A stretch of DNA of 64,000 bases. It comes from Streptomyces sp. TG1A-8 (lineage in GTDB: Bacteria > Actinomycetota > Actinomycetes > Streptomycetales > Streptomycetaceae). The notes beneath the pieces were generated by a model that did no database searches, had not been told where the DNA came from, and saw nothing but the letters and a program-made list of their open reading frames with translations. A program made the translations under genes and the position numbers. Location of the stretch: assembly GCF_030499535.1 (NCBI RefSeq), contig NZ_JASTLB010000001.1, positions 2,914,001 through 2,978,000 of the forward strand. Reading direction: 5' to 3'. This document shows positions 13,466 through 49,278 of the stretch, in pieces (the stretch's first letter is position 1; the number at the start of each line of letters is the position of its first letter).

Positions 13466-14512
13466 TCAGTGCGCGGACCGCCGCTCGTGCGCCGGCTCCG
13501 CCGTGCTCGACCGCACCACCAGGCTCGTCGCCAGCTCCACCCGGGTCGCGGCCCGCTCGTCGTCGGCGCGGCCCATCTCCAGCACCAGCCGGGCCGCGGC
13601 CTCGGCCATCTCCGTCAGCGGCTGCCGCACGGTCGTCAGCGGCGGACCGACCCAGCGGGCCACCGGAAGATCGTCGAAGCCGACCACGCTCAGGTCCCCC
13701 GGGACACGCAGGCCCAGCTCGCGCGCGGCCTCGTACAGGCCGAGCGCCTGCAGGTCGTTGCCCGCGAAGACCGCGGTGGGCCGGTCCGGGCGGCGCAGCA
13801 GTTCCAGGCCGAGGCGGTAGCCGGCGTCGTGGTGGAAGTCGCCGGCCACGACGAGCGAGGGGTCCACGGGCAGCCCGGCGGTCTCCAGCGCGGCCCGGTA
13901 CCCGTCGACCCTGGCCCGGCTGCACATCATCCGCGAGGGCCCGCTGATCGCGCCGATGCGGGTGTGGCCGAGTTCCACGAGGTGGCGGGTGGCGGCGAGG
14001 CCGCCCTGCCAGTTGGTGGCACCGATGGAGGGCACGTCGGGGCCCGGGTCGCCGGCCGGGTCCATCACCACGAACGGGATGGAGCGGCTGGTCAGCAGCG
14101 CCCGCTGGGACTCGTCGAGCCCGGACAGCACCAGCACGACGCCGTGCGGACGGCGGGCGGCGACCTGGTCGGCCCAGCTGCGGCCCGGGGTGAGCCGCCC
14201 GGCCGACTCGGACAGCACGACGCTCAGCCCGGCGTCGCGGGCCACGTTCTCCACGCCCCGGATGACCTCCATCGCCCAGGCGCTCTCCAGTTCGTGGAAG
14301 ACGAGGTCGATCAGCGGCGACCGGGAGGCCTCGGCGCGGCGGCGCCGGTAGCCGTAGGCGCGCAGCAGTTCCTCGACGCGGGCGCGGGTCGTCGGGGCGA
14401 CGTCGGCGCGGCCGTTGAGCACCTTCGAAACAGTCGGGGCGGACACCCCGGCCTCGCGGGCGATCTCGGCGAGGGTCGCCGTCTGCGTGTCTGCGGGCTT
14501 CGAGGGTTTCAT
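13466..14512 (-). CDS. LacI-family transcriptional regulator
   Basis: A 348-aa regulator: N-terminal HTH (ATLAEIAREAGVSAPTVSKV, LNGRADVAPTTRARVEELL), then a periplasmic-binding-protein-like sugar sensor (PLIDLVFHELESAWAMEVIR, GVENVARDAGLSVVLSESAG, VFAGNDLQALGLYEAARELG, VVGFDDLPVARWVGPPLTTV). ATG 14512 gives the family N-terminus. It is probably a repressor of a carbohydrate gene; its former target may be the CBM2 gene now reduced to a relic downstream. A palindrome at 14590-14599 upstream is a candidate autoregulatory operator. Confidence 0.94.
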   Translation of the reverse strand: MKPSKPADTQTATLAEIAREAGVSAPTVSKVLNGRADVAPTTRARVEELLRAYGYRRRRAEASRSPLIDLVFHELESAWAMEVIRGVENVARDAGLSVVLSESAGRLTPGRSWADQVAARRPHGVVLVLSGLDESQRALLTSRSIPFVVMDPAGDPGPDVPSIGATNWQGGLAATRHLVELGHTRIGAISGPSRMMCSRARVDGYRAALETAGLPVDPSLVVAGDFHHDAGYRLGLELLRRPDRPTAVFAGNDLQALGLYEAARELGLRVPGDLSVVGFDDLPVARWVGPPLTTVRQPLTEMAEAAARLVLEMGRADDERAATRVELATSLVVRSSTAEPAHERRSAH

Positions 14513-14648: not shown

Positions 14649-14682
14649 ACACCCCGCCCCCGGTGAACCGGGGACGGGGTGT
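14649..14682 (-). terminator. Terminator of the tRNA-Gly gene
   Basis: A 15-bp stem (ACACCCCGCCCCCGG against CCGGGGACGGGGTGT, one mismatch) with a TGAA loop begins 3 nt after the CCA end of the tRNA on the minus strand. Confidence 0.85.
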
Positions 14683-14685
14683 GTG

Positions 14686-14758
14686 TGGAGCGCCGGGCAG
14701 GCCTTGCACCTGCATCTCCCCGCAGGAAGCGGGACGTCTTTCCTTGGACCACCAACGC
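14686..14758 (-). tRNA. Atypical tRNA-Gly (anticodon UCC)
   Basis: The minus strand folds into a complete 73-nt cloverleaf. The acceptor GCGTTGG pairs with CCGGCGC (two G-U pairs), followed by U73 and an encoded CCA. The D arm has A14, A15, G18, G19 and A21 with a 3-bp stem. The anticodon stem TCCCG/CGGGG carries the loop CTTCCTG, giving UCC at 34-36. The variable loop is AGAT; the T stem GCAGG/CCTGC carries the loop TGCAAGG. Glycine identity elements (U73, C2-G71, C35, C36) are present. Unusual are G55 in place of the near-universal U55, pyrimidine 37, and possible C32-G38 pairing. It has its own promoter and terminator. Confidence 0.85.
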
Positions 14759-14800
14759 ACTGCGTCCGGTGCCGTTGTTCCGGCCGTTCGCGTTGTGATG

Positions 14801-14830
14801 ATCATAGCGCAGTGGCGGTGGATCCGCCAA
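14801..14830 (-). promoter_or_regulatory. Promoter of the tRNA-Gly gene
   Basis: On the minus strand TTGGCG (14825-14830) and TATGAT (14801-14806) are separated by 18 nt, a good vegetative promoter. Start of transcription would be near 14794, leaving a leader of about 36 nt before the mature tRNA 5' end. Confidence 0.78.
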
Positions 14831-14895: not shown

Positions 14896-15153
14896 TCAGC
14901 CGTCCGCCACCGGCTCGAACCGCCACCGGTGCACCGCCCGGGTCACCAGCTCCCCGGACGGCTCGGCCAGCTCCGGCAGGTCGGCGTCGTACGGGGCGTC
15001 CCACCAGGTGATGACCAGGACCCGGTCCTGCGGGGCGCGGAAGGTCTCCCGGCGCAGCGGCTCGGGTGCGAGCCGCTGCGCGCGCGCCCACGCCAGCAGG
15101 TCCGCGCCCCGGCCCGCGACGGCACGGGCCTCCCACATCAGGGCGACGCTCAC
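14896..15153 (-). CDS. Small conserved protein downstream of tsaD
   Basis: An 85-aa soluble protein ([37 protein letters not shown]) with no recognised family; the length and beta-alpha pattern faintly resemble ferredoxin-like monooxygenase domains, a weak guess. Its GTG start overlaps the tsaD stop (GTGA), so it is translationally coupled to the tsaB-rimI-tsaD operon and is very likely a real gene. Confidence 0.75.
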
Positions 15154-16235
15154 GGGTACAGGTTCTCCCCGCCGGCCTCGTGCACGTGGTCATGGGCCGG
15201 CACGTGCGGGTCGGTGACCGGCAGGGAGGAGTCGGCGGACAGGTCCCAGCCGGACGCGGCCCGGTTGCGGGCGACCATCTCGGCGCCGAGGGCGGCGACC
15301 ATCGCACCGTTGTCCGTGCACAGCTTGGGGCGCGGGACGCGCAGCCGGATGCCGGCCGCCTCGCAGCGCTCCTGGGCCAGGGCGCGCAGCCGCGAGTTGG
15401 CGGCGACGCCGCCGCCGATCATCAGGTGGTCGACACCCTCGTCCCTGCAGGCGCGGACGGCCTTGCGGGTGAGCACGTCCACGACGGCCTCCTGGAAGGA
15501 CGCGGCCACGTCCCGCACCGGGACCTCCTCCCCCGCCGCCCGCCTGGCCTCGATCCAGCGGGCCACGGCCGTCTTCAGACCGGAGAAGGAGAAGTCGTAC
15601 GCCGGGTCGCGCGGGCCGGTCAGACCGCGCGGGAAGGCGATCGCGTCCGGGTCGCCCTCCCTGGCGTAGCGGTCGATGACCGGGCCGCCGGGGAAGCCCA
15701 GGTCCAGCACGCGGGCGATCTTGTCGAAGGCCTCGCCGGCCGCGTCGTCGATGGTGGCGCCCATCGGGCGGACGTCGGAGGTGATGTCCGAGGACAGCAG
15801 CAGCGAGGAGTGGCCGCCGGACACCAGCAGGGCCATGGTCGGCTCGGGCAGCGGGCCGTGCTCCAGCTGGTCCACGCAGATGTGGGAGGCGAGGTGGTTG
15901 ACGCCGTACAGGGGCTTGCCGAGCGCGTAGGCGTACGCCTTGGCCGCCGAGACTCCGACGAGCAGGGCGCCCGCGAGGCCGGGACCGGCGGTGACCGCGA
16001 TGCCGTCCAGGTCCCCGGCGACGACCCCGGCCTCCTTCAGCGCGCGCTCGATGGTGGGGACCATCGCCTCCAGGTGCGCCCGGGACGCCACCTCGGGGAC
16101 GACGCCGCCGAAACGGGCGTGCTCGTCGACGCTGGAGGCGACGGCGTCCGCCAGCAGGGTGGTGCCGCGGACGATGCCGACGCCGGTCTCGTCGCAGGAG
16201 GTCTCGATGCCGAGGACGAGGGGTTCGTCAGTCAT
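15150..16235 (-). CDS. tsaD: tRNA N6-adenosine threonylcarbamoyltransferase TsaD
   Basis: A 361-aa Kae1/Qri7 family enzyme that transfers the threonylcarbamoyl group to A37 of ANN-decoding tRNAs with TsaB and TsaE. It shows [15 protein letters not shown], the metal-binding HxxxH in [19 protein letters not shown] and [16 protein letters not shown] short acidic/His C-terminal extension ([18 protein letters not shown]) goes beyond the family core. ATG overlaps the rimI stop by 8 nt. Confidence 0.98.
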
Positions 16236-32952: not shown

Positions 32953-33125
32953 GGTTCTTCTCCTGTGTGTCTGCCCCGGCCGTATCAGGTACCGGGGTCA
33001 GTATCCGAGCAGGCGGTCGCCTGTCGGAGATCCGGGGCGTCCCCGAAGGGACACCCCGGAGGGGGCACGGGGTGCGGTGCGCGACCCCGTCGCCCGGAGG
33101 CGACGGGCCACGGCGCACCCGCGCC

Positions 33126-48956: not shown

Positions 48957-48980
48957 CCGACCCACGCGGTCGGGCGTGTC
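48957..48980 (-). promoter_or_regulatory. Shared leader stem-loop, S10 operon copy
   Basis: On the transcript this reads GACACGCCCGACCGC then GTGGGTCGG. The CCGACC/GGTCGG arms form a 6-bp stem with loop GCGTG. It matches 23 of 24 positions of the element in front of rpsL (56318-56341). Downstream both leaders also share GTTCCAG and AGCTGTA. It lies 69 nt before the rpsJ start. Confidence 0.72.
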
Positions 48981-49278
48981 GCACTCTCGCTGACACGGAT
49001 GCCCCTTGTCCGGACATCCCTGCGGGGAATGCGCACGGCCCTTCCGGAACCGCAAGCCGGGGGCGGAAGGCCCACCGGGTGCCTGGCCGGTGCCGCGCCC
49101 ACGCTTCCCGGAAGATTCCCGTACGTCCGCCCCAGCGCTGCCGTCAGGCAGTTAGGGCGACGAGTACTGTGGGACTCGCTTCCGGTCCTCCCGGCGGGAG
49201 GCGCGCAGCATCAACACTCGGCCGAGCAACTCGGACAGTCTGCCACACGGGGCGGGTGCCTGGCCAATCGAGCCGAAG

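Follow-up and report, generated by a model that had tools for sequence, protein, structure and literature searches.

A mobile tRNA-Gly(UCC)-like gene family of Streptomyces and its possible use as a glycine donor outside translation

Introduction

Does an atypical tRNA-Gly(UCC) gene of Streptomyces serve the ribosome, or does it supply glycine to another enzyme? The gene lies on the minus strand of a 64,000-nt stretch of the Streptomyces sp. TG1A-8 genome, which we analysed whole and call the window. A first-pass annotation had described a stand-alone tRNA with its own promoter and terminator and had offered two uses: a cell-wall donor reminiscent of the non-proteinogenic tRNA-Gly of Staphylococcus, or translation as the only UCC isoacceptor. 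In Staphylococcus aureus, the excerpted text of two sources describes non-proteinogenic tRNA-Gly(UCC) as charged and poorly used by EF-Tu (PMC8007984, PMC4052509). As far as the excerpted sources go, it is apparently an unsettled question how glycyl-tRNA is withheld from EF-Tu for non-ribosomal chemistry outside Staphylococcus. Among the titles and abstract openings that full-text searches of the open-licence literature brought up, none describes an RNA like the one in the window.

Results

The window encodes a complete, atypical tRNA-Gly(UCC)

The features of the locus are as follows, with the evidence for each in brackets.

13466..14512 (-): LacI-family regulator, an ordinary downstream neighbour (gene comparison)
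14649-14682 (-): predicted terminator hairpin, 15 bp, -34 kcal/mol, z -5.55, poor U tract (folding)
14686-14758 (-): complete tRNA-Gly(UCC)-like gene (ARAGORN call tRNA-Gly(TCC))
14686..14687 (-): CA of the encoded CCA end (CCA present in 91/223 copies)
14688..14758 (-): RNA core of 71 nt, tRNA positions 1-74, the conserved family body (ARAGORN, alignments, covariation)
14689 (-): discriminator U73, then C74 (both in 83/83 BLAST copies)
14707 (-): G55 of the T loop UGCAAGG, replacing U/pseudouridine 55 (G in 83/83 BLAST copies)
14711 (-): A51, paired with U63 (14699), replacing the strong EF-Tu pair G51-C63 (A-U in 82/83)
14725..14727 (-): anticodon UCC (C35-C36 in 223/223 copies; position 34, position 37 and loop size variable)
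14756..14758 (-): acceptor-stem G1-C2-G3, partners 14690-14692, glycine identity (unchanged in 40/40 distinct A3 sequences)
14762-14791 (-): leader hairpin between promoter and RNA (folding against shuffles of family leaders)
14801-14811 (-): predicted promoter, extended -10 TGCGC-TATGAT, TGCGCTATGAT (sequence)
15150..16235 (-): tsaD (tRNA threonylcarbamoyltransferase), upstream neighbour (beside the RNA in 10/81 loci, window included)

The RNA has a 7-bp acceptor stem, a 3-bp D stem (10-12/23-25), a 5-bp anticodon stem with a possible C32-G38 pair, the anticodon loop CUUCCUG with U37, a 4-nt variable loop, U73 and an encoded CCA. Its score against the tRNA model RF00005 is 37.3 bits, above the cut-off of 29, and together with the ARAGORN call and the covariation described below this places it among tRNAs. 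These results bear out the complete minus-strand cloverleaf of the first-pass annotation and each departure that it had named (G55, pyrimidine 37, possible C32-G38 and the 3-bp D stem), and the observation as a whole is confirmed. In Infernal-type scoring the RNA passes the RF00005 cut-off, near the bottom among the genome's tRNAs, and is absent from the output of a fast Rfam cmscan at the gathering threshold. Taken alone, the thermodynamic fold of the RNA is not special (z -1.06).

The glycine identity set reported for bacteria in the excerpted text of PMC9976931 comprises U73, G1-C72, C2-G71, C35 and C36, and all of these marks stand in the window sequence. The same excerpt reports U16 as an identity element for Thermus GlyRS (PMC9976931), and U16 is missing here. 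The earlier statement that all glycine identity elements are present is thus right for the common bacterial set.

The RNA forms a cassette with a promoter, a leader hairpin and a terminator

We compared the window with a non-redundant set of 223 cassettes. The search pattern behind this set prescribes G55, CGCTC and parts of the D arm, so that only the anticodon region and flanks are free to vary in it. In 187 of the 223 a -10-like box can be assigned; the box itself is imposed by the promoter search, and TG at -5/-4 and G at -2 precede it in 80-83% of the 187. The commonest distance from the end of the -10 to the RNA is 41 nt. The 179 distinct leaders have a mean folding energy of -15.6 kcal/mol against -9.8 kcal/mol for their mononucleotide shuffles, and 99.4% of them are more stable than their own shuffles are on average. 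Terminator-like hairpins with T tracts follow 91/223 copies, compared with 1 in shuffled sequence and 0 in an upstream control. A strict terminator scan of the window found no terminator at the RNA gene because the U tract is poor. The promoter and terminator proposed by the first-pass annotation were both found in the sequence, the latter with a weak U tract. Since leader and terminator hairpins are kept despite differing sequences, it is apparently the transcript that is maintained rather than a DNA repeat, and selection seems to act on that transcript.

No fixed partner gene accompanies the cassette. Neighbours were compared over 81 loci (80 stretches of at most 20 kb plus the window), with genes delimited by a codon-position rule and clustered by BLASTP, and each protein family accompanied at most 12 of them at a distance of 6 kb or less. 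The upstream tsaD was not taken as part of the system. A riboswitch or attenuator acting in cis was rejected, since no downstream or neighbouring gene family is common to the loci (at most 12/81 within 6 kb).

Charging marks are fixed while decoding marks vary

Covariation in two alignments supports the fold; the first-pass annotation had named a lack of its conservation as a refutation. Alignment A3 (41 matches, 40 of them distinct) was fitted to the model and is hence biased toward it; 12 of its 21 pairs change on both sides, a number reached by 0/500 shuffles. In the unfitted alignment A2, two-sided cells number 7 where 1.7 would be expected, every one of them located in the anticodon stem, and its cell measures beat all shuffles; its number of two-sided pairs (2) was reached by 48/500 shuffles and its pair types by 497/500, neither being exceptional. 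Acceptor pairs 1-72, 2-71 and 3-70 are constant in 40/40 distinct sequences of A3, whereas two-sided changes occur at 5-68 and 6-67. The glycine identity elements G1-C72, C2-G71, G3-C70, U73, C35 and C36 are invariant in the aligned copies, and the stems around them covary.

The anticodon loop behaves differently. With maximal pairing, the 223 copies carry UUCCU (173), UUCCC (29), CUCCAA (9), AACC (4), AGCC (3), AUCC (2), and AUCCAA, UCC and CUCCU (1 each). Position 34 is U, G or A and the CC that follows is always retained. U33 is present in 203/223 and lacking in 20/223, position 37 is a pyrimidine in 203/223, and the loop, counted on a 5-bp stem, has the usual 7 nt or, in 19/223, one nucleotide fewer (6 nt). 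A kissing contact between the D loop and the anticodon loop (AGGAA with UUCCU) was considered and rejected, as the D loop AAGGAAA persists when the anticodon loop is AACC, AGCC or CUCCAA.

Outside the anticodon arm, G55, U73 and C74 were counted on 83 BLAST copies (the window copy included, several copies per genome) because the pattern behind the larger set fixes G55. All 83 have G55, so the departure in the T loop, whose conservation was another check proposed for this RNA, characterizes the family. Pair 49-65 is G-C in 81/83, and G18-G19 is retained (GG in 32/32 sequences of alignment A1). According to the excerpted text of PMC4052509, G49-U65 and G51-C63 are strong EF-Tu pairs, and Staphylococcus non-proteinogenic tRNAs have A-U pairs instead. 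The family departs from a canonical elongator in its T loop (no U54-U55-C56), in the base at position 37 and in the lack of a 7-nt anticodon loop in all copies. Read together, the alignments suggest that charging identity is fixed and that decoding and EF-Tu features are altered, and conserved in the altered state.

A canonical tRNA-Gly(UCC) makes the mobile RNA dispensable for reading GGA

We catalogued the tRNAs of the source genome (G000). RF00005 gave 78 matches at E up to 10, and the DNA around 76 was examined, the two left out of the reading scoring 18-19 bits. ARAGORN made 75 predictions on these loci, some plainly false, and missed three RF00005 matches, which were read separately. The glycine tRNA genes comprise three GCC, one CCC, one canonical UCC, four copies of the family under study and one second atypical UCC gene.

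The canonical tRNA-Gly(UCC) lies at G000:C1:4734850-4734921. It shares its anticodon, the acceptor start GCG and U73 with the mobile RNA and differs in its TTCG T loop, 4-bp D stem, A37 and G51-C63; it also has G49-U65 (pairs assigned by hand). Every one of 121 Streptomyces genomes has one full-length match that is 90-100% identical to it, with the anticodon not read in each. The option that the window RNA is the only UCC isoacceptor, under which it would act in translation, is therefore refuted, and the mobile RNA is dispensable for reading GGA. The proposed count of other UCC genes brought up the canonical and the second atypical gene. If the mobile RNA does act outside translation, tRNA-Gly(UCC) gene counts in Streptomyces may combine RNAs of both uses.

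The second atypical tRNA-Gly(UCC) (G000:C1:3867121-3867192(-), or L056:485-556) scores 53.5 bits and was missed by ARAGORN. Like the mobile family, it has a UCC anticodon, a possible C32-G38 pair and an irregular T arm with UGCAA, and is extra to the canonical gene; its T arm, GCAGTGTGCAATTCCTGT, cannot make a regular 5-bp stem. It differs in that only one copy occurs in the DNA read, placed first in a group with two tRNA-Gly(GCC) genes, and in its canonical-like acceptor (GCGGGTG), A37 and A18-G19 (hand alignment). Searches with R1, a covariance model of the mobile family, recovered three relatives in other Streptomyces genomes (L354-L356, positions 301-372), mutually identical over 72 bases and 94% identical to this gene, and a plasmid search with the gene itself gave only two matches, at 76%. 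This second gene may be a better candidate for a housekeeping cell-wall tRNA, or at least an equally good one.

Three genomes also have an exact 44-base piece of the 3' part of the canonical tRNA-Gly(UCC) at a distance of 6-10 kb from the gene (G019:C1 2826722, G030:C13 183059 and G112:C355 11480), a trace such as integrative elements might produce.

The family is multicopy, patchy and often carried on plasmids

Model R1, built from 23 distinct copies and run with stricter search filters under which weak matches may be lost, matches 62/121 Streptomyces genomes at 1-6 places per genome, some of them distant relatives. BLAST with the 73 bases finds 66/121, with full-length matches 76-100% identical; four of these genomes (G035, G066, G104, G115) have short weak matches that R1 did not confirm. 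In an order-level sample the family is present in 109/197 genomes and confined to one of six genera. A class-level sample has matches in 20/296 genomes, 16 of them Streptomyces; the four outside (34-37 bits) are tRNAs with U55 and anticodon UCU and were rejected. A pattern scan of genome contigs returned at least 120 stretches, and among the matches listed 79/80 records are Streptomyces and one is, by title, Actinacidiphila. Of the distant relatives, L357 still has G55; the T loop of L352 is normal.

Plasmids carry many copies: 71 plasmid records have 137 matching places, two of these records being Streptantibioticus, and the S. clavuligerus plasmid records (16 among the matches listed) have 4-8 places each. 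The source genome itself has four copies. Apart from the one in the window, all are on the 518-kb contig C4 and show 96% identity. An inverted repeat of ~14 kb with nearly identical arms, resembling the termini of a linear plasmid, holds two of them in its arms; the third has only 557 bp in common with these two. Elsewhere copies lie among unrelated genes, as with three inside 3.3 kb in S. mangrovisoli, and also near chromosome ends. A few are partial (G024:C53, G040:C1:254438, G095:C51). RNA-positive genomes exceed RNA-negative ones in size (median 9.1 vs 7.9 Mb, p 3e-7). The family is thus mobile, multicopy, patchy and often plasmid-borne. A phage origin was rejected, with the pattern in 0 viral contigs and 0 phage records.

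A charged RNA kept from the ribosome is the leading, tentative explanation

Starting from the observed gene family, its fold, the promoter, leader and terminator cassette, the invariance of the identity elements, the redundancy with a canonical UCC tRNA and the patchy, plasmid-borne distribution, we tentatively favor a stand-alone mobile glycine tRNA that would be charged by GlyRS, used poorly or not at all by EF-Tu and the ribosome, and employed as the glycine donor for a non-ribosomal transferase. The RNA would be transcribed from its own promoter, receive tRNA-type 5' and 3' processing, and have its CCA completed in copies that do not encode it. The genome has one GlyRS, of the dimeric type (gene at C1:4850103), and the identity elements predict glycylation by this enzyme. 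G55, A51-U63 and the anticodon-loop changes would make for poor use by EF-Tu and the ribosome, so that the charged RNA could form a separate glycyl-tRNA pool from which a transferase draws. A T-box search brought no link to GlyRS: the one match, at C1:5230055, is half-length (40.3 bits vs a cut-off of 93) and does not lie at the GlyRS gene. If the donor account is true, this is an unusual case of a tRNA behaving as a mobile accessory gene. A family with fixed charging marks and altered decoding marks is a natural test set of more than 50 sequence variants.

The likeness to Staphylococcus non-proteinogenic tRNA-Gly appears partial. As drawn from features published for S. aureus in the excerpted sources rather than from a sequence comparison, the shared traits are extra UCC genes beside a canonical one, an altered T loop, A51-U63 and a low tRNA score. 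In the same excerpts, Staphylococcus has UU or CU where the Streptomyces RNA keeps G18-G19, and A-U at pair 49-65 where the Streptomyces RNA has G-C. Variable anticodon-loop size and a mobile, plasmid-borne, patchy gene also set the Streptomyces RNA apart. The suggested Staphylococcus-like option thus appears to hold in kind, with charging identity fixed and decoding and EF-Tu features altered, and the two differ at G18-G19 and pair 49-65; charging and poor EF-Tu use are themselves predicted for the Streptomyces RNA.

Invariant contacts with GlyRS would also suit a tRNA-Gly mimic that donates no glycine, a regulator or decoy that binds GlyRS or a protein or toxin attacking glycyl-tRNA. The changed shape of the anticodon loop and the lack of a recurrent partner gene fit such a mimic, and mobile, plasmid-borne, multicopy carriage would suit protection against a tRNA-targeting agent. 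Glycine specificity occurs among GNAT toxins. That GNAT toxins acetylating aminoacyl-tRNAs exist, as the excerpted text of PMC9177977 states, also counts for this explanation. However, C74 in 83/83 copies and an encoded CCA in 91/223 suggest that aminoacylation matters, and no toxin or immunity family was found among the recurrent neighbours, which were clustered and not all named. We therefore regard a mimic as possible yet unlikely.

Decoding by the mobile RNA is still conceivable, since U33 and a formal 7-nt loop with N34-C35-C36 occur in 203/223 copies and C32-G38 could open. It might then be an auxiliary translational tRNA-Gly(UCC) that adds capacity for GGA/GGG or acts under special conditions. 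Against this, the canonical UCC tRNA is always present (121/121), position 37 is mostly a pyrimidine, some copies lack U33 or have a short loop, G55 is fixed and A51-U63 is nearly so. Such features are not expected to persist in a decoding tRNA, and an auxiliary translational role is accordingly improbable.

A regulatory small RNA, in which a C-rich hairpin loop pairs with Shine-Dalgarno regions and the cloverleaf is just a stable scaffold, would agree with the exposed, C-rich loops UUCCU and UUCCC, with the cassette's own promoter and terminator, and with the lack of fixed neighbours. An antisense loop should give the reverse of the observed pattern, namely a constant loop and a variable acceptor. 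Here loop sequence and size vary (AGCC, AACC, CUCCAA), but acceptor pairs 1-3, U73 and G55 are constant, which makes this explanation highly improbable. Finally, the family might be a functionless tRNA-derived repeat, decaying or selfish, that transposition has dispersed. The scattered short cassettes, the plasmid and chromosome-end copies and the few partial copies might suggest this, but it is scarcely credible, because leader and terminator hairpins are kept despite divergence and the 76-100% identical bodies (full-length matches) carry compensatory changes, which points to selection on the transcript.

FemX-type transferases are candidate users of the glycine

If the mobile RNA is a glycine donor, the most likely type of user is a FemX/FemAB-type transferase. 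The excerpted text of PMC4052509 and PMC12945691 names FemX, VanK and Orf11 of BD-12 as users of Gly-tRNA outside translation. FemX/VanK and the FemABX-like transferases of Streptomyces would be possible partners, not relatives, of the RNA, and these excerpts mention no dedicated tRNA for them (PMC4052509, PMC12945691).

FemAB is universal in our sample (121/121 genomes), whereas the RNA is present in 62/121 and so does not occur wherever FemX does. The share of genomes scored as having two FemAB genes, on the basis of 4 or more match pieces, does not depend on the RNA (37/62 with it vs 30/59 without it, p 0.36). Only 1/81 RNA loci (L149, genome G092) has a FemX-like gene at a distance of 10 kb or less. 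These data are evidence against a role in the housekeeping bridge, and they leave the cell-wall donor role put forward by the first-pass annotation weakly supported.

A second FemX paralogue fares better. In the source genome it lies at G000:C4 216440-217558 (L372), amid Tn3-type and other transposase genes on the plasmid-like contig C4, which also bears three of the four copies of the RNA. S. clavuligerus pSCL4 holds a close relative. Among the matches listed, relatives of the C4 copy have 72-87% identity in 36 other genomes, and the next group has 64-69%. At 72% identity or more, the paralogue is present in 30/62 RNA-positive and 7/59 RNA-negative genomes. The association has p 1.2e-5 raw and p 0.015 when permuted within strata of clade marker and genome size, the clade control, built on identity classes of the canonical tRNA, being crude. 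The RNA is also present on every one of the 17 plasmid records whose paralogue reaches 85% or more; 16 are S. clavuligerus and one is Streptomyces sp. BHT-5-2.

The paralogue is missing, however, from 32/62 RNA-positive genomes and 54/71 RNA-bearing plasmid records, and the number of RNA copies shows no relation to it (p 0.84). Comparison of 20 stretches around the paralogue shows that many chromosomal copies have a common gene neighbourhood; therefore, common descent perhaps explains part of the co-occurrence. Cyclodipeptide synthase, another user of aminoacyl-tRNA, has the reverse trend (16/62 genomes with the RNA vs 27/59 without), so larger genomes alone do not create the association. The paralogue is a weakly supported candidate for the transferase and the best that we found.

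One may go further and suppose that the mobile charged tRNA, kept off the ribosome, and the second, sometimes transposon-borne FemX paralogue together divert glycine to an accessory cell-wall or peptide modification. The two would act in trans and move separately, and the chromosomal atypical tRNA-Gly(UCC) could serve the housekeeping bridge. We consider this two-part arrangement doubtful.

Other unusual RNA genes and cell-wall genes

Several further elements were noted in passing. On a plasmid (NZ_CP030074.1, L375 5923-8711), a FemAB gene adjoins murJ and a two-component system, forming a cell-wall module. In the window, an L17 ribosomal protein leader (RF03132, 72.5 bits) lies at 32971-33027 (-), and an ARAGORN prediction of tRNA-Ala(CGC) at 48964-49054 (-), without RF00005 support, is probably false.

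Allo-tRNAs are unusual tRNAs with a long variable arm and serine-type features. They share with the mobile RNA that they are unusual, multicopy tRNA genes, and they differ in that long variable arm and the serine-type features: the variable loop of the mobile RNA is 4 nt long, and its features are of the glycine type. The source genome has six allo-tRNA-like genes (G000:C1 476864, 514876, 985676, 1777831, 1826227 and 4669214), with a long variable arm, a GGAGAGGTGCCCGGAG-type start, differing anticodon regions and scores around the tRNA cut-off. A 54-bit tRNA-like match at G000:C1 3641995-3642080 (+) (L052:51-136) has an odd insertion after the anticodon region and is uncalled by ARAGORN. Predictions of tRNA-Leu(CAA) at G000:C1 5289864 (-) and tRNA-Leu(UAG) at 4504296 (+), 74-76 nt long, have short variable loops unlike those of other leucine tRNAs. 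At G000:C1 4904402 (+) (L064), a degenerate tRNA-Met(CAU)-like gene of 38 bits with an altered D arm lies ~3 kb from a normal tRNA-Met.
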